Assembly: GCA_016235665.1 (NCBI GenBank)
Contig: JACRJI010000008.1
Location: forward strand, 124,001-188,000
From: a candidate division TA06 bacterium
Lineage (GTDB): Bacteria > Edwardsbacteria > AC1 > EtOH8
Reading direction: 5' to 3'
DNA length: 64,000 nucleotides
In this document: positions 44,864 to 59,097 of the stretch, one piece after another
Position numbering within the stretch: position 1 is the first letter of the stretch
How the letters are laid out: each line of letters begins with the position of its first letter
Program-made: the position numbers and the translations under genes
The notes under the pieces: model-generated
What the model was told of the DNA's origin: nothing
The model's database searches: none
Seen by the model: only the letters and a program-made list of their open reading frames with translations

Positions 44864-45757
44864 TCACTTGAATAGCTTCGTGCTTAAATACTTCTCCCCC
44901 CGGTCCGGGAAGATGACCACTATCCTGCCCTTTTTGATCTTCCTGGCCACCTGAATGGCCGCGTACATGGCCGCGCCGCTGCTCATCCCCACAAAGATCC
45001 CTTCTTTCTCCACTATCTTCCGGGCGGTGTCAAAGGCCTGTTCGGTGCTGACCATCACGGTCTCGTCTATCAGCGAAGGCTCATAGATGGAAGGCACTAT
45101 GGCCTCCTCCATGTTTTTCAAGCCCTGGATATAGTGGCCCTTAACGGGATGAGCCTCTACTATCTTGATCCGGGGGTCGTTCTCCTTAAGGGCCCGTCCA
45201 ACTCCCATGATGGTGCCCGAGGTGCCAACGGAGGAGACCAGATAATCGATATTGCCGTTGACCTGCTTCCAGATCTCCTGGGCCGTGGTCTTGTAATGGG
45301 CCATCTTGTTGTAATGATTGGAGAACTGATCCGGCATGAAATACTTTTGGGGATTTTTTTTGACCAATTCCCGGGCATTGATGATCGCCCCGTCGGTCCC
45401 CAGCCTGGCATCGGTGAGTGTGACCTTGGCCCCAAAACTTTTGATCATCTTGACCCGTTCGGCTGAGACGGCCCGGCTCAGAACGATCTCCACCTTGTAG
45501 CCTTTGACCGCCCCGATCATTGCCAGGCCGATGCCGGTGTTGCCCGAGGTGGGCTCGATGATGGCCCTGTTCTTTGACAGCGCCCCTTCTGCCTCGGCCT
45601 GTTCGATCATTTTCAAAGCTATCCGGTCCTTGATGCTGCCGGTGGGGTTGGCTCCCTCTATCTTGGCGTAAATGTCCGCGTGTTTATTGGGGTTTAGACG
45701 GTTTATCCTTACCAGTGGTGTATTGCCGATGGTCTGGAGTATATTCTCGTATATCAT
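44864..45757 (-). CDS. cysK: Cysteine synthase (O-acetylserine sulfhydrylase family)
   Basis: PLP enzyme making cysteine from O-acetylserine (or a related ester) and sulfide. 297 residues, slightly short but with all motifs: 'IGNTPLVRINRL', the PLP Lys in 'GANPTGSIKDRIA', the phosphate loop 'EPTSGNTGIGLAMIGA', and 'SVGTSGTIMGVGRAL'. 'MSSGAAMYAA' is near the C-terminus. The classic family loop is NPxGSxKDR, met here. The gene lies between the DHH gene and the atpB start region, inside the ATPase locus, and is flanked by the intact DHH 3' end and a decayed copy of it. It may therefore be a late insertion at this joint. Confidence 0.94.
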   Translation of the reverse strand: MIYENILQTIGNTPLVRINRLNPNKHADIYAKIEGANPTGSIKDRIALKMIEQAEAEGALSKNRAIIEPTSGNTGIGLAMIGAVKGYKVEIVLSRAVSAERVKMIKSFGAKVTLTDARLGTDGAIINARELVKKNPQKYFMPDQFSNHYNKMAHYKTTAQEIWKQVNGNIDYLVSSVGTSGTIMGVGRALKENDPRIKIVEAHPVKGHYIQGLKNMEEAIVPSIYEPSLIDETVMVSTEQAFDTARKIVEKEGIFVGMSSGAAMYAAIQVARKIKKGRIVVIFPDRGEKYLSTKLFK

Positions 45758-45767
45758 TTAATATCGT

Positions 45768-46682
45768 TTACCCGTCCTCGTTCATCTGCTTGACTAATTC
45801 AGACAGCACCTCGTCCGCCTTCTCTATCGCCACCTGGCAGGTGCCCACCTTGGCGTGGCCGCCGCCGTTGTATTTCAGCATCAGCGAGCCCACGTTGGTC
45901 CTGGAGGTCCGGTTGATGATGCTGTGCCCGACGGCAAACACCACGTTCAGCTTTTTCATCCCCCACATCATCCGGATGGAGATGTTGATGTTGGGGAACA
46001 TCCCGTATTCCACAAAACGGTTGCCGGTGGGGATCTCCTCCACCTTGCGCAGGTCGGTCACCAGCACGTTCTGGTGGACGGTGGAGTATTTCTTGATCAT
46101 CTCCTTGTACAGCCATTCCGACTCGTGATAGCGCTGGATCCGCTCCCGGATGTCCGGCAGGTCCAGGATCTCCACGATGTTCATGGTACGGCAGTATTCC
46201 ATCAGGTCCTGCATCAGCTGCAGGTTGCTGATCCGGTAGTCGGAGTAGCGGCCCAGCCCGGTGCGGGGGTCCATGATGAAGGCCAGCAGGATCCAGCCCT
46301 TGGGCGCGGCGATCTCCTCCACCGTCAGGTCGCCGGAGTCGGATTTGTCAACCGCCTTCAGCATCTCGGCGAAGTTGGGGAACTTCTTCTCCCCGCCGTA
46401 AAAATCGTAGATCACCCTGGCGCAGCTTTTGGCCGGCTCGGACTTGCCCTTGAAATCATCGGGAAAGGCCTTGCGCTCGCTTTCCGACAAATGATGGTCG
46501 AACCACATCCCGCAGCCCTTGGCGTAGGGCACGTTGGCCAGCACGTCATCGGCCGTCACTTCCACCTTGCCGTCCTGAACATCCTTGGGATGGACGAATT
46601 TGAACTGATCGATGACCCCGGCCTCCTTTAACAGGACCCCGCAGATCAGGCCGTCAAAATCGGATCTGGTAACAAGGCGCAT
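45768..46682 (-). CDS. DHH-superfamily phosphoesterase (exopolyphosphatase/DHHA1-like)
   Basis: 304 residues, cytoplasmic. Metal motifs are DFDG ('TRSDFDGLICG', residues 6-16), the DHH triplet in 'MWFDHHLSESER', and the C-terminal DHHA1 motif 'YNGGGHAKVGTCQV'. The family hydrolyses polyphosphate, cyclic dinucleotides or nano-RNA; this branch with 'LLAFIMDPRTGLGRY' is not assignable further. It starts 40 nt after atpA and stands between A and B subunit genes together with cysK. Part of its 3' end has been duplicated at 44801-44855. Confidence 0.88.
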   Translation of the reverse strand: MRLVTRSDFDGLICGVLLKEAGVIDQFKFVHPKDVQDGKVEVTADDVLANVPYAKGCGMWFDHHLSESERKAFPDDFKGKSEPAKSCARVIYDFYGGEKKFPNFAEMLKAVDKSDSGDLTVEEIAAPKGWILLAFIMDPRTGLGRYSDYRISNLQLMQDLMEYCRTMNIVEILDLPDIRERIQRYHESEWLYKEMIKKYSTVHQNVLVTDLRKVEEIPTGNRFVEYGMFPNINISIRMMWGMKKLNVVFAVGHSIINRTSRTNVGSLMLKYNGGGHAKVGTCQVAIEKADEVLSELVKQMNEDG

Positions 46683-48508: not shown

Positions 48509-48994
48509 TTAAAACTTATTATGGAATGTCTGGCGGCTGCCGTTGTACCACCACCAGATGTTGACTGCAGCACTGTCTATGGTGGTCAGGGTATCCGAAG
48601 CCCTGAGCAAATAGGCCGTGGTGTCGGAAATCCAACCGGTTCCAATAGTTTTTGTCATAAGACCCGATGTTTCTTCAATGCTAAAAAGACTGAAACAATT
48701 GAAAGGCTCGATTATTGTTTTGCCATTGTGTAAATATACCAATACATCCTCCGAATCAGAACCTGATTGGATAAAAGAATAGTCCTGAATTTTATAAACC
48801 AGTTGAATGTCGATCTGGCATTCCCTGGCATAAGTACTGTTGAATGCCGCATGTATCGAATCCGTCAGACTGACGGAAGTAAGTGCCGGAGTTTTTTCCA
48901 CTTCGGAAGGGTCTTTGCTGCAACCCGTCATTAGTATTGAGATGGTAGCAAACAATGCAATCGCAGCTATCTTCCTGAAGATCTTTGATTTCAT
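48509..48994 (-). CDS. Small predicted lipoprotein
   Basis: 161 residues of unknown family. N-terminus 'FRKIAAIALFATISILMTGC' with a lipobox LMTGC followed by Ser-Lys, so it is lipid-anchored. The mature part has 'LTDSIHAAFNSTYARECQIDIQLVYKIQDY' (an amphipathic run, shortened) and a C-terminal 'NIWWWYNGSRQTFHNKF'. It is one of three unknown genes between atpA and atpF. Lower GC than the ATPase genes suggests a separate origin. Confidence 0.7.
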   Translation of the reverse strand: MKSKIFRKIAAIALFATISILMTGCSKDPSEVEKTPALTSVSLTDSIHAAFNSTYARECQIDIQLVYKIQDYSFIQSGSDSEDVLVYLHNGKTIIEPFNCFSLFSIEETSGLMTKTIGTGWISDTTAYLLRASDTLTTIDSAAVNIWWWYNGSRQTFHNKF

Positions 48995-49009
48995 ATCATC
49001 ATATATCCA

Positions 49010-49903
49010 TTAATTGTAGAATCTCACACCCAACTCAATTAATTTATCCTTGGGCCTGACCGTCAGCTGGTCAAGGATATTGTAATTGACGAACAACAGA
49101 GATCCGCCGGCCCCCCTTCTGAAATGCCCTTCTATTCCTGCAACGTAGGTCTGCATCGGCCGGTACTCGCGGCTATAATTGACATTGACCAGGGTCTTGA
49201 CGTTCACCAGCCAGTCATGGGTCTTAAATAAGGCATAGCGGTTATCCAAGGTTAGTTCCCAGTTGTATCTTTGCCCTCCGCCCAGCACGGCCTCGGGCAG
49301 CAGGCCCAGCGCCCGTTTAAAGTAATGGCCCAGCCTCACTCCATAGCTGAACTGTGTTTTGAAATCCCAAACACTATCGGCATTGAGTCTTTGGCGGTAG
49401 ACCGGCAGTTTGAAGTTCTTGGATCCTATCTCCCCGAACCCCTTGTTCCAATATTCGGTCACCCCGTCGTCCCGGTCAATGTCGTGAAAACAGAAATGCT
49501 CCAGCCCCAGTTTGCAATCCAGCGGTTTTAGTCTGAGTTCGATCGAGGGTGTTATTCCATATCGGACGTCCCTGGGATCGAAGATCACCGCCCCGTCCTG
49601 CCGGCCCATGCCGGTTTTGACGTAAAGGGCCCAGTCCGAAAAGATCAGGTTACGCCAGGAAACAAAGACGAACTCCATGTCGGAATTGGTCTCTATGAAA
49701 AAGCGCTGACGGTACTCGGTGCTCTTGTGATTGGCATAGACCATCACATCTGCGGTAAGATGGAACTCCGGCATGAATTCAAACTTATTCAGCAGCCTTT
49801 CCAGCGAAGCCATACCCGGTACGGGGCTGGCAGCAGAAAAAGTACAGGCCGAAAATAATATATAAGTACCAAGTAAAAGTCTTTTCAGATTCATTCTAAC
49901 CAA
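49010..49903 (-). CDS. Predicted outer-membrane beta-barrel protein
   Basis: 297 residues, no family recognised. The signal peptide 'LLLGTYILFSACTFSAAS' is followed by alternating amphipathic strands ending in aromatic residues ('HLTADVMVYANHKSTEYRQRFFIE', 'YGVRLGHYFKRALG', 'NWELTLDNRYALF'). The final strand 'LIELGVRFYN' ends in an aromatic residue and Asn, resembling a beta-barrel terminal signal. It starts 1 nt after the 49905 gene's stop, forming a pair with it. Function and link to the ATPase are unknown. Confidence 0.65.
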   Translation of the reverse strand: MVRMNLKRLLLGTYILFSACTFSAASPVPGMASLERLLNKFEFMPEFHLTADVMVYANHKSTEYRQRFFIETNSDMEFVFVSWRNLIFSDWALYVKTGMGRQDGAVIFDPRDVRYGITPSIELRLKPLDCKLGLEHFCFHDIDRDDGVTEYWNKGFGEIGSKNFKLPVYRQRLNADSVWDFKTQFSYGVRLGHYFKRALGLLPEAVLGGGQRYNWELTLDNRYALFKTHDWLVNVKTLVNVNYSREYRPMQTYVAGIEGHFRRGAGGSLLFVNYNILDQLTVRPKDKLIELGVRFYN

Positions 49904-49904
49904 A

Positions 49905-50429
49905 TCATTGATTTAACGTATCAGATATTGTAATTTGAGGTCTCATTACTTCCCGGTTATAAAGCCATATGGTCTTTTCCATATGGTTCGCTTCAGCAAT
50001 CTCATTTATCCCGCCAATAATGATACTTACAAGCGAACCGGCGAGCAAGGAAAGCGATAAAGTATAATCGCTATTGCTGGGATTATCCTTAGATTGCGGA
50101 ATGAACGCCGCACAATATAGTATAAAAGCCGTCGTGAATGAAATGTTTTTTATTCTATTTGAAGATTGGTAGTATTTATATTCCGACATCACAGATTTAA
50201 ATGGTTTACCAATATCCGACATATATTTCAATGAATATGTATCGCCGTTTATTAATAGCTTTGGGCCGCTCCAAAAAGTATGCAGAGTCCTTATAGACTT
50301 GTATTGATATAACGAATCATACTTTTGCCCGATTATCATAGAAGACGTTCCTATGTCTTGAGCTTGCGCATAAAAAGACAAAACAGCAACAAAAGAGAAA
50401 ACAAACAGAACAAATTTCGCAGGCTTCAT
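49905..50429 (-). CDS. Hypothetical exported/membrane protein
   Basis: 174 residues. A signal or first helix (FVLFVFSFVAVLSFYAQA) is followed by a polar region 'QKYDSLYQYKSIRTLHTFWSG', then two hydrophobic helices near residues 98-112 (FTTAFILYCAAFIP) and 124-142 (TLSLSLLAGSLVSIIIGGI). The C-terminal polar tail ends 'RPQITISDTLNQ'. AT-rich relative to the ATPase genes. It pairs with the barrel-like gene 1 nt downstream. I recognise no family. Confidence 0.65.
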   Translation of the reverse strand: MKPAKFVLFVFSFVAVLSFYAQAQDIGTSSMIIGQKYDSLYQYKSIRTLHTFWSGPKLLINGDTYSLKYMSDIGKPFKSVMSEYKYYQSSNRIKNISFTTAFILYCAAFIPQSKDNPSNSDYTLSLSLLAGSLVSIIIGGINEIAEANHMEKTIWLYNREVMRPQITISDTLNQ

Positions 50430-50465: not shown

Positions 50466-50789
50466 TTATTTAAGTTTTACGTAAAATCCTATGGCATCCT
50501 TCACCAATTTTGCCAGATACTGCTCCCCGCTAATCACCTGGCCCTCCTTGGGCACCGGGAACGGCAGAACTACAGGCAAGGCCTTGTTCTTAAGGGCCCG
50601 GGCCACATCCTCGCCCAGGTCTCCGGCCAGCTGATCGTTGACCGCTATCAGCCCGTAGCTTTCGGCATGGATCAACTCCAGCACTTTTGCCTGAAGCTCG
50701 CTGTTATCTTTGACCTCAAAAGTCTCGGCTCCGGCCATCCGGAACCCGGTGGCCGTGCCGCTGTCGGTTATTATAGCTAAACGGTTCAT
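50466..50789 (-). CDS. atpF: V/A-type ATP synthase subunit F
   Basis: Small central-stalk subunit that regulates coupling. The longest frame begins at 50855, but its first 22 residues (with TEAQRHREN) are a read-through of a dispersed 'CTCTGTG' repeat. The true start is the ATG at 50789, preceded by AAAGG, giving 107 residues as expected. Family signs: 'RLAIITDSGTATGFRMAGAE' and 'YGLIAVNDQLAGDL', then 'PVVLPFPVPKE'. It is separated from subunit C by a four-gene membrane module and from subunit A by three unknown genes. Confidence 0.93.
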   Translation of the reverse strand: MNRLAIITDSGTATGFRMAGAETFEVKDNSELQAKVLELIHAESYGLIAVNDQLAGDLGEDVARALKNKALPVVLPFPVPKEGQVISGEQYLAKLVKDAIGFYVKLK

Positions 50790-50811
50790 GCAACCTTTTA
50801 CTTTAAATTGG

Positions 50812-50843
50812 TTTTCTCTGTGCCTCTGAGCCTCTGTGGCTAA
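50812..50843. repeat. 'CTCTGTGCCTCTGAGCCTCTGTGGC' dispersed repeat
   Basis: TTTTCTCTGTGCCTCTGAGC followed by CTCTGTGGCTAA lies just upstream of the true atpF start. Same family as the split copy at 19562-19614 in opposite orientation. Confidence 0.7.
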
Positions 50844-50864
50844 TTGAGGACCCAAAAGGCCTCT

Positions 50865-51470
50865 CTATTTCAGTATGTGCAGCCAGTCTCCCAGCAGGAA
50901 TTGCATCCGGCCGATCAGCAGTGAGATCCGTGCCATCACCGTGTACCCGAAGGCCGCCCCGAAGGCGATCATCAAGTACCAGACCCCCAGCTTTGCTCCG
51001 GCTCCGATGAACCCCTTATGCTCGGCCGAAAAGAAGAAATAGACCAGGGTGGCCAGAACTCCCAAGACCAAAAGGAAGTTGTTGAGGGAATTCATCGGGA
51101 TCAAAGTGGCCTGGGTCTGGGCCAGGACGTCGGTGGACAAAAAGGCGGTCACCGAAAGCCCGGCGCCCATCCCCACCACCATGGAGATGGGGAAACGCAG
51201 CAGCCAATTGTGTTTGCGGGAGAAGGCGAAGAAGACCAAAAGTCCCATCACCCCGGGAATGATCAGATAATACTTGTGGGCGAAATTCGTGGTCAGTGGA
51301 TTCCACAGATTGGGCAGCACCACGTTATGGAACTCGGCCGCCACAAAGTATCCGGCCGAGATCCCCACGTAGACGTGCTCGGCAAATTTGTAAAGGGGGT
51401 TGTCCTTGTACAAAAAGCTGTAGATGCAGAGCGTTAAAAGAGCGCCCAGCCATATTCCGAAAACTGCCAT
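50865..51470 (-). CDS. Six-helix membrane protein of a four-gene module
   Basis: 201 residues, about six transmembrane helices: 'IWLGALLTLCIYSFLY' (4-20), 'VYVGISAGYFVAAEF' (33-48), 'YYLIIPGVMGLLVFFAFS', 'FPISMVVGMGAGLSVTAFLS', 'FLLVLGVLATLVYFFFSA', 'YLMIAFGAAFGYTVMARISLL'. The 'KDNPLYKFAEHVYVGISAGY' loop is the most conserved-looking part; I have seen this start in hypothetical proteins of related candidate phyla. It follows the 51472 gene by 1 nt and precedes atpF by 75 nt. Function unknown; a membrane complex with its three upstream neighbours is inferred from spacing. Confidence 0.78.
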   Translation of the reverse strand: MAVFGIWLGALLTLCIYSFLYKDNPLYKFAEHVYVGISAGYFVAAEFHNVVLPNLWNPLTTNFAHKYYLIIPGVMGLLVFFAFSRKHNWLLRFPISMVVGMGAGLSVTAFLSTDVLAQTQATLIPMNSLNNFLLVLGVLATLVYFFFSAEHKGFIGAGAKLGVWYLMIAFGAAFGYTVMARISLLIGRMQFLLGDWLHILK

Positions 51471-51471
51471 T

Positions 51472-52317
51472 TTACTTCTCCTCCTTTTTGCGGGTCAGGA
51501 AAAAGGCTATGTTTCCCACCAAAATGAATCCCACTATCAGGAAATGAGCCAGGCTTTGGGCCGACATCCCGGTGGAGGCCGCGCCCGGATGATCTACCAG
51601 AACTTCGTATTCGGCTGCGCCCCTCATCCCTCCCATCAGACCCACCAGCTGGCCCGACTGCAAATAAGCCGAGAACTCCGGGGCCGAGACCGCGGTGCAG
51701 CCCCCGGTGACCGGGACCCCAAACCGCTGCCAGGCGAACTGTATCCACATTATCAGCCCCGGGTCGCCGGCCGAAAAAGAGACCACCGCCCCCATATCCT
51801 TAAGCGACTTGACCTGCTTCATCAATTCCAGAGTGTCTGTCCTGTTCTTGTAATAATCCTGGGGGAAGGCGTCGGCAATGCTCTTGGCCATGGTCACCAC
51901 CAGCACCGCCTGGCCCGACTTGTAGCCCAGGTTGACGTAATCGCGGCCGTAGACCTTGCCGGGATATTCGGTCCGGATGACCTCGGACACCTGCTTCTCG
52001 ATCAGCGGGGTCCCGGTTACCCAATGACCCATCATCACTACTTTCAGGTTCCGGCGCATGGCATGGCGCAGCATGGCAGCCGACAATGGATAAAGCTCGG
52101 GCATGGAGCCGGGATCGTAATCCCAGGAGAAAAGCACCGGGCTTCCCTCGGGCAGTTTTTCCAGCAGGTCATAGGCCTGCTTCACGTCGCCGGAGACTGT
52201 CATGGGCAGTTTGACGTTTATCAGCAAAGCCAAAGCCACGGTCAGGCCCATGGCCAAAAATATCCAGCGCCGGTCTATCCGGGTCAATCTTTCCAAAAAT
52301 GTTTTCATATTCGTCAT
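51472..52317 (-). CDS. Membrane-anchored protein of a four-gene module
   Basis: 281 residues with one helix at each end (WIFLAMGLTVALALLINV, residues 18-35; SLAHFLIVGFILVGNIAFFL near 255-274) and a soluble alpha/beta domain between them, presumably on the outside face. The domain has 'GSPVLFSWDYDPGSMPEL', 'NLKVVMMGHWVTGTPL', 'YVNLGYKSGQAVLVVTMA', 'GVPVTGGCTAVSAPEF' and 'LVGLMGGMRGAAEYE'. The DYDPGS and GGMRGA motifs look like ligand-binding loops, but no family comes to mind. It lies between two polytopic genes with gaps of 1 and 7 nt, so tight co-expression is certain. Confidence 0.75.
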   Translation of the reverse strand: MTNMKTFLERLTRIDRRWIFLAMGLTVALALLINVKLPMTVSGDVKQAYDLLEKLPEGSPVLFSWDYDPGSMPELYPLSAAMLRHAMRRNLKVVMMGHWVTGTPLIEKQVSEVIRTEYPGKVYGRDYVNLGYKSGQAVLVVTMAKSIADAFPQDYYKNRTDTLELMKQVKSLKDMGAVVSFSAGDPGLIMWIQFAWQRFGVPVTGGCTAVSAPEFSAYLQSGQLVGLMGGMRGAAEYEVLVDHPGAASTGMSAQSLAHFLIVGFILVGNIAFFLTRKKEEK

Positions 52318-52324
52318 CCTCCCT

Positions 52325-52984
52325 CTAATTGCCGCCGGTGGTCAGGTAGGAGCGCTCGATCCCCAGCAGCATCCGCAAAGCCATGGAAACCGCTCCCAGG
52401 GCGGCCCCGATCTTGATGCCCCGCTGGCCGGCCGTGTTGGGGATCTCCATCACCCACTGGGTGACCTGGTCCAGCAGGGCCGGGACCTTGGCGCCCAAAA
52501 ACGGAACATGCTGCCAAAGCCAGCTACCCAGCGGCACCCGCCCGATCATGATGATGGCGGCGGCTATCAGCAGCAGGGTGGCCTCCTTGTTGCGGGCCCG
52601 GAAAGCCCGATAGGCGGCGGAAGCTATGAAGAAGGCCAGCAGCGAGAACATGGCCGAGGACAGCGGGGCCATCACGTTGTCATAAAGCCAGTAGTAGGCA
52701 GTTCCCTCTTTGATGCCCCAGAACAATCCCAGCACCATCATAAAAGCCAGGCAGACCAGCAGGGTCAGGCTGTAGAACCAGCCCTGGCGCCGGCGCTGGA
52801 TCTTCTCGGCGTGAACGAAGATCAGGTTTCCGATCCCCAGCACCAGGGTAAAGGCCACGATGATGATCTCCCAGGACTGCATCTCCTGGGCCGAATTGGC
52901 CACTATGGGATGCGGTACAAAGAAGGCCAGGATCATGTAAAACCCGGCCAGGAAGGTTATCGCCAGAGGAATTGTTTTTTTCAT
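52325..52984 (-). CDS. Polytopic membrane protein of a four-gene module
   Basis: 219 residues, about six helices: 'LAITFLAGFYMILAFFV', 'WEIIIVAFTLVLGIGNLIFV', 'WFYSLTLLVCLAFMMVLGLFW', 'MFSLLAFFIASAAYRAF', 'ATLLLIAAAIIMIGRVPL', and a final amphipathic segment with 'AALGAVSMALRMLLGIERSYL'. The cytoplasmic loop is basic (HAEKIQRRRQGW). GGAGA lies before the ATG. No family recognised. It is followed closely by the 281-residue gene (7 nt). Confidence 0.78.
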   Translation of the reverse strand: MKKTIPLAITFLAGFYMILAFFVPHPIVANSAQEMQSWEIIIVAFTLVLGIGNLIFVHAEKIQRRRQGWFYSLTLLVCLAFMMVLGLFWGIKEGTAYYWLYDNVMAPLSSAMFSLLAFFIASAAYRAFRARNKEATLLLIAAAIIMIGRVPLGSWLWQHVPFLGAKVPALLDQVTQWVMEIPNTAGQRGIKIGAALGAVSMALRMLLGIERSYLTTGGN

Positions 52985-53046
52985 ATCAGGTCTCCGAAAT
53001 TATCGCCGGATGATTATGTTTCAAACAACTGAAAAATATTTACGAA

Positions 53047-53078
53047 ACAGACAGGATTTACATGATTTAACAGGATTG
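53047..53078. repeat. Dispersed repeat 'CAGGATTTACATGATTTA', copy 2
   Basis: CAGGATTTACATGATTTAAC followed by AGGATT, in the 178-nt gap of the membrane module. Nothing else is evident in 52985-53162. Confidence 0.75.
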
Positions 53079-53162
53079 ATTACCATACCTTTAATTTATC
53101 CCGCAAATCCGGTCAGTTCCATGATAATATAGTCTTTTTTAGCAGTAAACTTGTGTTCTTGT

Positions 53163-54317
53163 TTACCGCGGCATCAGCCAGCCGGCGAAGAAACCCAGCT
53201 GGGGGAATTTAAGGGCCAAAGTCTGCATCACCGCACCTATCAGGATCAGGAATATCACCGCCGCCTTGCCCCAATCCTGGGCCTTGATGGTGCCCAACAG
53301 CACCGGCTCCTTGGAAAGATAGGCCGAGGCAGCATAGATCTCCTCGCCGATCAGGGTATAGTCGCAAGCCGCCACAAAGAACGGCAGCTGGGTGATCATG
53401 GCGGTACCGGCGATCTGGATGGCTCCGGTGGAATAGCCGGTCTCGGCCAGGATCAGCGATTCGGCGTAAAAAGTACCGATCATGAAGTTGGCGGCCGGCT
53501 TTTCCCGGACCATCATCCCGTCCACCCCGGCGGTGTAGGCGAACTGCTCGTTGGTCAGGTAGCGGATGTTCTCCGCCCGGTAGGCATCGGGCCGTCCGGC
53601 GTTCATATAGCTTGATTTCACTATCTCCTGGGCCAGGGTCATCACCAGGGGATCGGAGCAGGGAACCAGCAACGGGGTGTCATATTCGGCCGCCTTGTTG
53701 GCCACCCGGCCCAGGATCACCAGGCTGGCCAGGGTCTGGATGTCGGACACCGCCGAAAGACCGCCCGAAGGCAGATAAAGGATGGGCCGCCCCATTTCGG
53801 TGGCCCGGCCGATGGCCTCATCCACCGCCGAAAGTCCGGCGATGCGGCGGACAAACAGATCGGCCCCGTGCCGGGCCTTATAGATGTAAAGCAGTATCAG
53901 TCCGGTAAAAACCAAAAAGGCTATCAAAATGTTTGCCCGGGCGGTGTTGAACCACTGGGCGCTGGACTGCACCGGACCTAAAGGTGCGGTTTGGGCGGAG
54001 TCGGTAAAAGTAACGGCGTTGATCTGATAGTAGTACTGCACGCCGGGGGTGAGCGTGTTGTCGGTGAACTCCAGGCTGCCCGGAAAAACATAGCCCGCCT
54101 CGGCATAGGGGCCGCCGGCAGTTTCTGACCGCAGTATCCGGTAGCCTTTGAAAGCGGCCGGATCGGCTGTTTCGGCGGCCGCCTTGTCCCAGGTCAGGAT
54201 CAACGAACGCCCGTCGTCATTGGGAACATCCCGTACCTGCAGGTTCCCCGGCGGGTCCATGGCCAGAGCCGGAAGGAACAACCCGGCCGCCAGCAGCACT
54301 ATCAAGCATTTTTTCAT
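53163..54317 (-). CDS. DUF6754-like membrane protein with fibronectin-III domain
   Basis: 384 residues. Signal peptide (CLIVLLAAGLFLPALA), then a fibronectin type III domain (about 21-115, 'LILTWDKAAAETADPAAFKGYRIL' style with 'VQYYYQINAVTF'), a helix (NILIAFLVFTGLILLYIY, about 130-147) and a large domain with 'ADLFVRRIAGLSAVDEAIGRATEMGRPILYLPSG' (shown in part), 'VDGMMVREKPAANFMIG' and 'ACDYTLIGEEIYAASAYLSKEP'. A last helix is near 355 (AAVIFLILIGAVMQTL). I associate this C-terminal part with DUF6754, which has no known function. It lies 41 nt after atpC and heads the four-gene module. Confidence 0.8.
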   Translation of the reverse strand: MKKCLIVLLAAGLFLPALAMDPPGNLQVRDVPNDDGRSLILTWDKAAAETADPAAFKGYRILRSETAGGPYAEAGYVFPGSLEFTDNTLTPGVQYYYQINAVTFTDSAQTAPLGPVQSSAQWFNTARANILIAFLVFTGLILLYIYKARHGADLFVRRIAGLSAVDEAIGRATEMGRPILYLPSGGLSAVSDIQTLASLVILGRVANKAAEYDTPLLVPCSDPLVMTLAQEIVKSSYMNAGRPDAYRAENIRYLTNEQFAYTAGVDGMMVREKPAANFMIGTFYAESLILAETGYSTGAIQIAGTAMITQLPFFVAACDYTLIGEEIYAASAYLSKEPVLLGTIKAQDWGKAAVIFLILIGAVMQTLALKFPQLGFFAGWLMPR

Positions 54318-54358: not shown

Positions 54359-55396
54359 TCACCACAGCAAAAGCTGGTCACGGATCTGGTCGCCGCTGAT
54401 GCCGTAAAACTTGCCCCGGGCCACCAGCCTCAGGTTTATGACCTCGTAATACTTCTGCCAGAGAAAGCCCAGCACCAGGTCTATGCCCAGCGGGTTCCCC
54501 TGATAAAGTTTTGACAATTCCTTGAAATGTTCCTGCTCCAGGTTCTCTTCCGTTCTCTGGTCGCTGCCCTTGCCGGACAGATAGCTGTAATATGGCGATC
54601 CTTTAAGCGAGGCTAGCACCTTGGGCCCCTCCTTGCGGTCAAAATATCTTATGAACCTTTCTTTAGATAGAAGAGTGCCGCCGGGGATGTAATATTTCTG
54701 GATCGACTCGGGCTTCAAATCTTTTTTTTCCTTAAGCCTTTTTAGGGCCTTGGCATTCAGTATGTCGATCTCCCTTTGGAAAAGAGCTTTCAGCGAGGCG
54801 GAATCTTCACCCCATAACGGAAGTTTTTTAAAGACCCGGGAATAATAATATTTATACAACTCCAGTTCCACCGGAGCCAGGTCCTTTTCCTTTTGATACT
54901 CTTCCAGCGCCTGTTTAATGGGCAGATGAAAATCATCTCCCCAGGTATACAGGGTATCGGCCAGTCCGGCCAGATCCGGCTGGCTGGCCAGTTCCTGCAA
55001 TTTCACTTCACTGATGCTGCCTGCCGGCAGAACGCTTTTCAGTATCTCGGCCGTGCTCCACCCGCCGTATATCCCTCGGGCCACTGCGATCAGGTTTGAA
55101 AGGTCCCAGCGCCTTAGAATGATGGTGATCAGATCATGCGGCCGGCCTTCGGCTATCTTCAAAAGCAATTCTGTGGTCTGGCAGAAATTCTTCTCCAGCG
55201 ACCACTCCAAGGCCTCCAGCCCCTGATACCTGGCCCTGGCCAGATGCCATTGCTTTGAATACGGGCTGGATTCCATCCATTTTTCCATAGGCTGAAACCC
55301 CGGCAAAGCCAGCAGTTCTTCGTAGGCACCCGGTTTTAATAGACGGCTGTGCTGCCCCCTGATCCTGGCGTTTATGTAACCATAATCCGACGGCAT
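54359..55396 (-). CDS. atpC: V/A-type ATP synthase subunit C
   Basis: Funnel-shaped subunit that docks the central stalk onto the membrane rotor ring (eukaryotic subunit d). 345 residues, within family range. Signs: 'DYGYINARIRGQHSRLL' at the start, 'DLITIILRRWDLSNLIAVARGI', 'LELYKYYYSRVF' and 'FLWQKYYEVINLRLVARGKFYGIS' near the end. It starts 4 nt after subunit E, as in compact A-ATPase operons. Confidence 0.93.
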   Translation of the reverse strand: MPSDYGYINARIRGQHSRLLKPGAYEELLALPGFQPMEKWMESSPYSKQWHLARARYQGLEALEWSLEKNFCQTTELLLKIAEGRPHDLITIILRRWDLSNLIAVARGIYGGWSTAEILKSVLPAGSISEVKLQELASQPDLAGLADTLYTWGDDFHLPIKQALEEYQKEKDLAPVELELYKYYYSRVFKKLPLWGEDSASLKALFQREIDILNAKALKRLKEKKDLKPESIQKYYIPGGTLLSKERFIRYFDRKEGPKVLASLKGSPYYSYLSGKGSDQRTEENLEQEHFKELSKLYQGNPLGIDLVLGFLWQKYYEVINLRLVARGKFYGISGDQIRDQLLLW

Positions 55397-58719: not shown

Positions 58720-59097
58720 TTAATACAGCACCTTGATGAATGCCTCGGATGCCCTGCGCATCTGCATCCTGGCCATGCCGATGTTCCCCATGCCGGCCTG
58801 AAGGCCCACTTCCAGATAAAAATCAGTCCCCACCATCTTGAGGATTATGGTGATCTTCTGGGTGGAAAATATCAGCTCGGAAATGTCGCCCACCGCCAGG
58901 CTCTGGGCGGCCCGGTTGGCGGTGGCCAGCATGGTGGCGAACTCTGCGTCTGCCAGGGTGGGATCGAAGGCCGGGTCGATGTTGTAGAAGGCAATTCCGA
59001 TGCCGTCTACGCCGGTCAGGCTGGCCGAGACCGCTCCGGGGATAAGATCGGTCAGTTCCTTCAACAATTTTTCGTAATTGCTGCTGGCTGATTCCAT
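58720..59097 (-). CDS. Roadblock/LC7-like protein at the head of the ATPase locus
   Basis: 125 residues. The fold pattern is Roadblock/LC7 (MglB-like): an N-terminal helix 'NYEKLLKELTDLIPGAVSASLTG', strand 'VDGIGIAFYNI', helix 'AEFATMLATANRAAQSLA', strand pair 'ISELIFSTQKITIILKMVGTDFYLEVGLQ', then a C-terminal helix (motifs abbreviated). Such proteins act as GTPase regulators or scaffolds. It has an AGGTGA Shine-Dalgarno and stands 28 nt ahead of subunit H, so it is probably part of the ATPase operon. No partner small GTPase is in the window. Confidence 0.72.
   Translation of the reverse strand: MESASSNYEKLLKELTDLIPGAVSASLTGVDGIGIAFYNIDPAFDPTLADAEFATMLATANRAAQSLAVGDISELIFSTQKITIILKMVGTDFYLEVGLQAGMGNIGMARMQMRRASEAFIKVLY

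Follow-up and report, generated by a model that had tools for sequence, protein, structure and literature searches.

The stretch of DNA analysed here (the window; 64,000 nucleotides from a candidate division TA06 bacterium of the Edwardsbacteria, GenBank assembly GCA_016235665.1, contig JACRJI010000008.1, positions 124,001 to 188,000) carries four co-directional membrane genes, D6754, TMA, AB and TMB, between the V/A-ATPase genes atpC and atpF. We find that the four form one unit, a cassette of fixed order that has been duplicated and moved as a block, and that it goes together with two soluble partners, a long MutL-family ATPase and a barrel-sandwich protein (BSH). The link of the cassette to the V-ATPase is real but confined to Edwardsbacteria, and in the window's genus a MutL-type cassette now occupies the V-ATPase slot, having replaced the resident unit. 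Tentatively, we propose that the cassette encodes a four-subunit inner-membrane complex with exchangeable outer heads, and that a shared cytosolic ASKHA ATPase together with BSH would assemble or drive it. Open reading frames and Pfam-identified flanks confirm the four-gene layout given in a preliminary description of this DNA (TM, transmembrane):

54359..55396, minus strand: atpC, V-ATPase subunit C, upstream border of the slot (PF01992, E 7e-61)
53163..54317, minus strand: D6754 gene, 384 aa (PF20539, E 1.8e-118; AlphaFold model; hydropathy)
54009..54257, minus strand: FN3 head of D6754 (titin FN3 profile match, Foldseek FN3 match, identities)
53208..53963, minus strand: DUF6754 Pfam match in D6754 (PF20539)
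53868..53936, minus strand: first TM segment of D6754, likely recombination boundary (hydropathy, identity comparison)
52325..52984, minus strand: TMA, a protein of about six TM segments, 219 aa, with conserved FSLLAFFIASAAYRAFRAR (open reading frame, alignment, hydropathy)
51472..52317, minus strand: AB, an alpha/beta domain flanked by two TM segments, 281 aa (open reading frame, AlphaFold)
50865..51470, minus strand: TMB, a protein of 5-6 TM segments, 201 aa (open reading frame, hydropathy)
50816..50840, minus strand: short repeat CCACAGAGGCTCAGAGGCACAGAG between TMB and atpF
50466..50855, minus strand: atpF, V-ATPase subunit F, downstream border of the slot (PF01990, E 2.5e-16), its probable start being the ATG at 50789 and not the TTG at 50855

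The reported gaps of 7 nt (TMA-AB) and 1 nt (AB-TMB) are real; D6754 and TMA, however, are separated by 178 nt, and atpC and D6754 by 41 nt. The order D6754-TMA-AB-TMB was counted 144 times in the fetched loci, so the arrangement is not a matter of chance and a conserved set of four does exist across DUF6754 genomes. Where tight spacing had been taken to imply a complex, what stands is a single unit, on the strength of its fixed order and its duplication and movement as a block, whereas a physical complex is something that we infer. At least 576 loci with DUF6754 were recovered by a scan, and the top 80 represent Edwardsbacteria, Zixibacteria, WOR-3/Stahlbacteria, Latescibacterota, Poribacteria, Coatesbacteria, Fermentibacteria, Eisenbacteria and Cloacimonadota, among others. 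DUF6754 was present in 85 of 290 surveyed genomes (~30%) and its cassette in 22 of 61 relatives, with between one and seven copies per genome in many phyla; the window's genome itself has two further complete cassettes, in tandem on a different contig. We found no support for a defence, plasmid or phage origin of the cassette, and the PADLOC anti-phage defence models gave a single weak match (E 0.012), on the small protein of the operon described below.

The unit co-occurs with two soluble partners. A MutL-family ATPase is encoded in 81 of the 85 DUF6754 genomes compared with 7 of the 205 others (odds ratio 573, p 5e-58, a p-value that overstates independence because the surveyed genomes are partly related). 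Six of these seven MutL-only genomes hold just the short classical form (open frames of 455-484 aa), and the seventh, G262, which is 90% complete, has a long MutL without DUF6754. The partner MutL is about 610 aa (usually ~560-660 aa) with a conserved C-terminal extension, and retains the phosphate and adenosine motifs of the ASKHA fold (DCGSTTTK, DIGGATTD, GSGGVLSHAP). In at least 30 genomes no more than 10 kb separates it from DUF6754, and one MutL of usual length accompanies several cassettes, seven of them in G150. Among the relatives, BSH is present in all 22 DUF6754 genomes (G039 by a weak match) and in none of the 39 others; it has an apparent C-terminal KOW region and matches RnfC_N, lipoyl domains, NusG and SPT5 weakly. 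MutL and BSH directly precede D6754 in many phyla and are themselves preceded by a two-TM protein of ~150 aa and a small protein of ~130 aa, giving an eight-gene operon (2TM-small-MutL-BSH-D6754-TMA-AB-TMB) that is intact in several phyla. The suggestion that the two-TM protein is pleckstrin-like was not confirmed by Pfam. As separate observations, seven genomes (G090, G110, G119, G150, G231, G243 and G274) encode an additional MutL-family protein whose open frames span ~875-1034 aa, and the MutL gene of G132 (G132:C7:80289-81698) contains one in-frame TGA.

The proteins themselves largely stand apart from known families. D6754 is an unambiguous DUF6754 member (394.7 bits against the curated cut-off of 27 bits), and its FN3 head, which is under the Pfam cut-off at 18.7 bits, nevertheless matches a titin FN3 profile (E 4e-19) and in its predicted structure resembles titin FN3 with a TM-score of up to 0.81, bearing out the earlier assignment of a DUF6754-like protein with FN3. 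Profile searches with each protein and Foldseek searches with AB and D6754 recognised FN3 and PF20539 and no characterised relative: sequence and profile searches found none for TMA, AB or TMB in Pfam, NCBIfam or PDB, a PDB profile search with the DUF6754 core, AB, TMA and TMB returned nothing except FN3, and Pfam matches of the family alignments were weak, scattered and mutually inconsistent. TMB carries the conserved motifs LYKDNPxYxxAEH and FGAxFGYTVMARxSLLIGR. A paralogous relation between AB and D6754, or between TMA and TMB, was rejected (hhalign probability ~2%).

Hydropathy gives D6754 a signal-like N-terminus and two TM segments, AB two, and TMA and TMB five segments each over the cut-off, the sequences suggesting six; together with AlphaFold, which places the AB alpha/beta domain between two TM helices with high confidence (pLDDT 93), this agrees with the earlier view of two polytopic proteins and one doubly anchored alpha/beta protein. 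The D6754 model runs from FN3 through a TM helix, an alpha/beta core and a second TM helix (pLDDT 82). Applying the positive-inside rule by eye, the D6754 core is predicted to be cytoplasmic and the AB domain to lie outside, and the FN3 head is likewise predicted to sit outside the cytoplasm. Outer heads of D6754 copies range from absent to ~700 aa, and the cores within Edwardsbacteria are 57-99% identical.

These features suggest how the parts might work together. D6754, TMA, AB and TMB would assemble into one inner-membrane complex, with the D6754 alpha/beta core inside, the AB domain outside, two polytopic subunits and a variable FN3- or Ig-like head outside. The long MutL and BSH would serve as soluble partners common to all cassettes of a genome, MutL with BSH docking on the D6754 core and using ATP either for assembling the complex or for driving it across the membrane. 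Whether by assembly, remodelling or transport, we infer that the ATPase acts on the complex; its putative action would be the transport or remodelling of an envelope client selected by the outer head, and the window copy would be such a unit placed in the Edwardsbacteria V-ATPase operon. Several points weigh against this proposal: profile searches with TMA and TMB revealed no channel or transporter signature, Foldseek gave no convincing fold match for AB or D6754 beyond FN3 (over the query, the top AB matches reach TM-scores no higher than ~0.35), no MutL is recognisable in G016 although this genome holds three cassettes and BSH, and MutL relatives are known to act as accessories to B12 mutases and are not known as membrane motors. 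We regard this mechanism as the likeliest of the readings considered, possible rather than probable.

The Pfam entry for DUF6754, an uncharacterised family catalogued as a domain only, covers neither the four-gene unit nor its partners. The arrangement can be likened, in its possible workings only, to an ABC importer, which likewise pairs two polytopic subunits and an anchored outside alpha/beta domain with a soluble ATPase; the unit's ATPase, however, is of the ASKHA type, the eight-gene operon contains no P-loop ABC ATPase, and no sequence or fold relation was found. In the literature searched, which covered few subscription papers, nothing was found on the unit, its partners or the operon. 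Because no subunit or arrangement could be filed under a known kind, we rate the system as undescribed, a rating that papers beyond that literature could change. An operon of up to eight genes has been kept across many uncultured phyla without a described function, and since BSH accompanies the membrane unit without exception in the genomes compared, and MutL nearly so, the parts to be tested are defined. If an ASKHA ATPase does drive or assemble a membrane complex, this would be a new energy-coupling arrangement; the fuller picture of a new class of membrane machine, in which such an ATPase would act via a barrel-sandwich adaptor on paralogous four-subunit complexes with interchangeable heads, one of them fitted to the V-ATPase in Edwardsbacteria, we consider unlikely.

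In the preliminary description the four genes were seen as a membrane complex made together with the V/A-ATPase that could serve it. As a general rule this is not supported: the cassettes of relatives lie mostly away from atp genes, the outcome which that description had itself named as speaking against its idea, and of 76 loci in 51 families other than the window's, none had a V-ATPase subunit near the cassette. Outside the family, DUF6754 and V-ATPase subunit C are also distributed independently (23 genomes with both, 54 with DUF6754 only, 62 with subunit C only and 143 with neither; odds ratio 0.98, p = 1), so that subunit C is missing from 54 of 77 DUF6754 genomes. The four proteins have no Pfam, NCBIfam or PDB relation to V-ATPase subunits, and Edwardsbacteria alone were found to have the insertion between subunits C and F. 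Within Candidatus Edwardsbacteria/UBP2, on the other hand, the cassette directly follows atpC in ten of ten genomes (split over contig ends in G002). This confinement leaves room for a lineage-specific role, in which the cassette would regulate or assemble the V/A-ATPase of its operon, and in the window's genus the slot stayed filled through the replacement, with an FN3 head that looks retained. Given that paralogous cassettes of the same genome sit elsewhere, in addition to the pattern outside the family, we judge such a role quite unlikely.

The replacement at the slot can be followed in some detail. Slot cassettes of G003-G009 form a single clade (support 100/100), and those of the window and G001 belong to another (100/100) whose remaining members stand beside MutL-BSH. 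The MutL locus of the window's genome, on contig 16, has the same neighbours as in G005 and lacks a cassette; together with the clade placement, this identifies the cassette now at the slot as MutL-type. TMA and TMB are 83% and 82% identical, respectively, to the MutL-linked copies of G005 (L071), and over residues 151-345, the main part of its DUF6754 match, D6754 shares 95% identity with the MutL-linked copy from that genome. The FN3 head, by comparison, is 34% identical to that copy and 40-46% identical to V-ATPase-slot copies. Identity to the MutL-linked copy rises from 45% to 94% just past the first TM segment, and the replacement appears to begin inside D6754, near this segment. Placement of the D6754 core is firm (100/99.7; alternative rejected, p 0.012); a grouping of the head with V-ATPase-slot copies is favoured without being firm (support 85/89; p-AU 0.11 for the alternative), and heads evolve fast in general. 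Perhaps, then, the FN3 head was kept from the resident slot cassette. The Edwardsbacteria slot is a natural case of unit exchange at one genomic site.

Other neighbours suggest further roles. In Fermentibacteria, WOR-3, Zixibacteria and family f31, ExbB/ExbD/TonB or a TonB-dependent receptor gene lies near the cassettes, and one stretch of G296 holds MutL, BSH, cassettes, LplA, a TonB-dependent receptor, ExbB and two ExbD-like genes, along with DUF4388-like and Roadblock-like genes read by eye. The unit could accordingly be imagined as an inner-membrane partner of TonB-dependent outer-membrane transport; the association, however, is seen in just 3-5 of 51 families, and with TonB genes so common in these phyla the signal may partly be background. 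We find this role very unlikely. An ABC transporter as a regular neighbour was rejected, the nine-family ABC cluster mixing unrelated ABC proteins.

The clearest outside neighbour of the cassettes is the glycine cleavage system, with gcv genes at 10 of 76 loci where ~0.7 would be expected by a rough estimate (a 24-kb target in a 2.7-Mb genome); the match at L066 is probably false, leaving nine. Tandem cassettes of Edwardsbacteria adjoin sarcosine-oxidase-like genes (in the window's genome, sarcosine-oxidase-like flavoenzyme and iron-sulphur genes), and LplA adjoins the MutL locus, as might suit a membrane module tied to glycine or one-carbon metabolism that would draw in the glycine cleavage system, lipoate ligase and sarcosine-oxidase-like flavoenzymes. 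Most loci lack gcv, however, the link may be a single inherited arrangement, and BSH has no lipoyl-lysine motif by eye, which makes the tie highly improbable. At locus L057 of G016, the genes immediately before a DUF6754 cassette form an HdrABC-like and NiFe-hydrogenase cluster.

Equally improbable is a membrane-anchored reactivase or chaperone for a B12-dependent or related enzyme, like classical MutL/GlmL: the partner ATPase does belong to PF13941, nearest GlmL/Or-4, and shares the fold family and ASKHA motifs of GlmL/MutL (PF13941, TIGR01319), but it differs in its length and C-terminal extension, falls under the NCBIfam cut-offs (225.9 of 475 bits for GlmL, 155 of 204 bits for glmL_fam), comes without glutamate mutase E (PF06368 above cut-off in 0 of 61 genomes) and shows no association with methylmalonyl-CoA mutase (present in 15 of 22 genomes with DUF6754 and 22 of 39 without).

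The V-ATPase operon of the window contains additional genes. At 48509-50429, between atpF and atpA, lie genes for three proteins of 174, 297 and 161 aa, all uncharacterised and with no Pfam match, the 161-aa one being lipoprotein-like; other Edwardsbacteria (L164, L173) have genes of comparable size in a comparable position. A gene of ~180-204 aa, missing from the window's genus, stands between TMB and atpF in other Edwardsbacteria (L069, L167, L169, L171, L173, L175, L177). The operon is headed by a Roadblock/LC7-like protein at 58720-59097 (Pfam E 0.03, below cut-off), and loci L238 and L081-L093 likewise have Roadblock-like genes close to their cassettes. Between atpA and atpB, at 44864-46682, are a cysteine-synthase-like gene and a DHH-like 304-aa gene, the latter retained there in other Edwardsbacteria.

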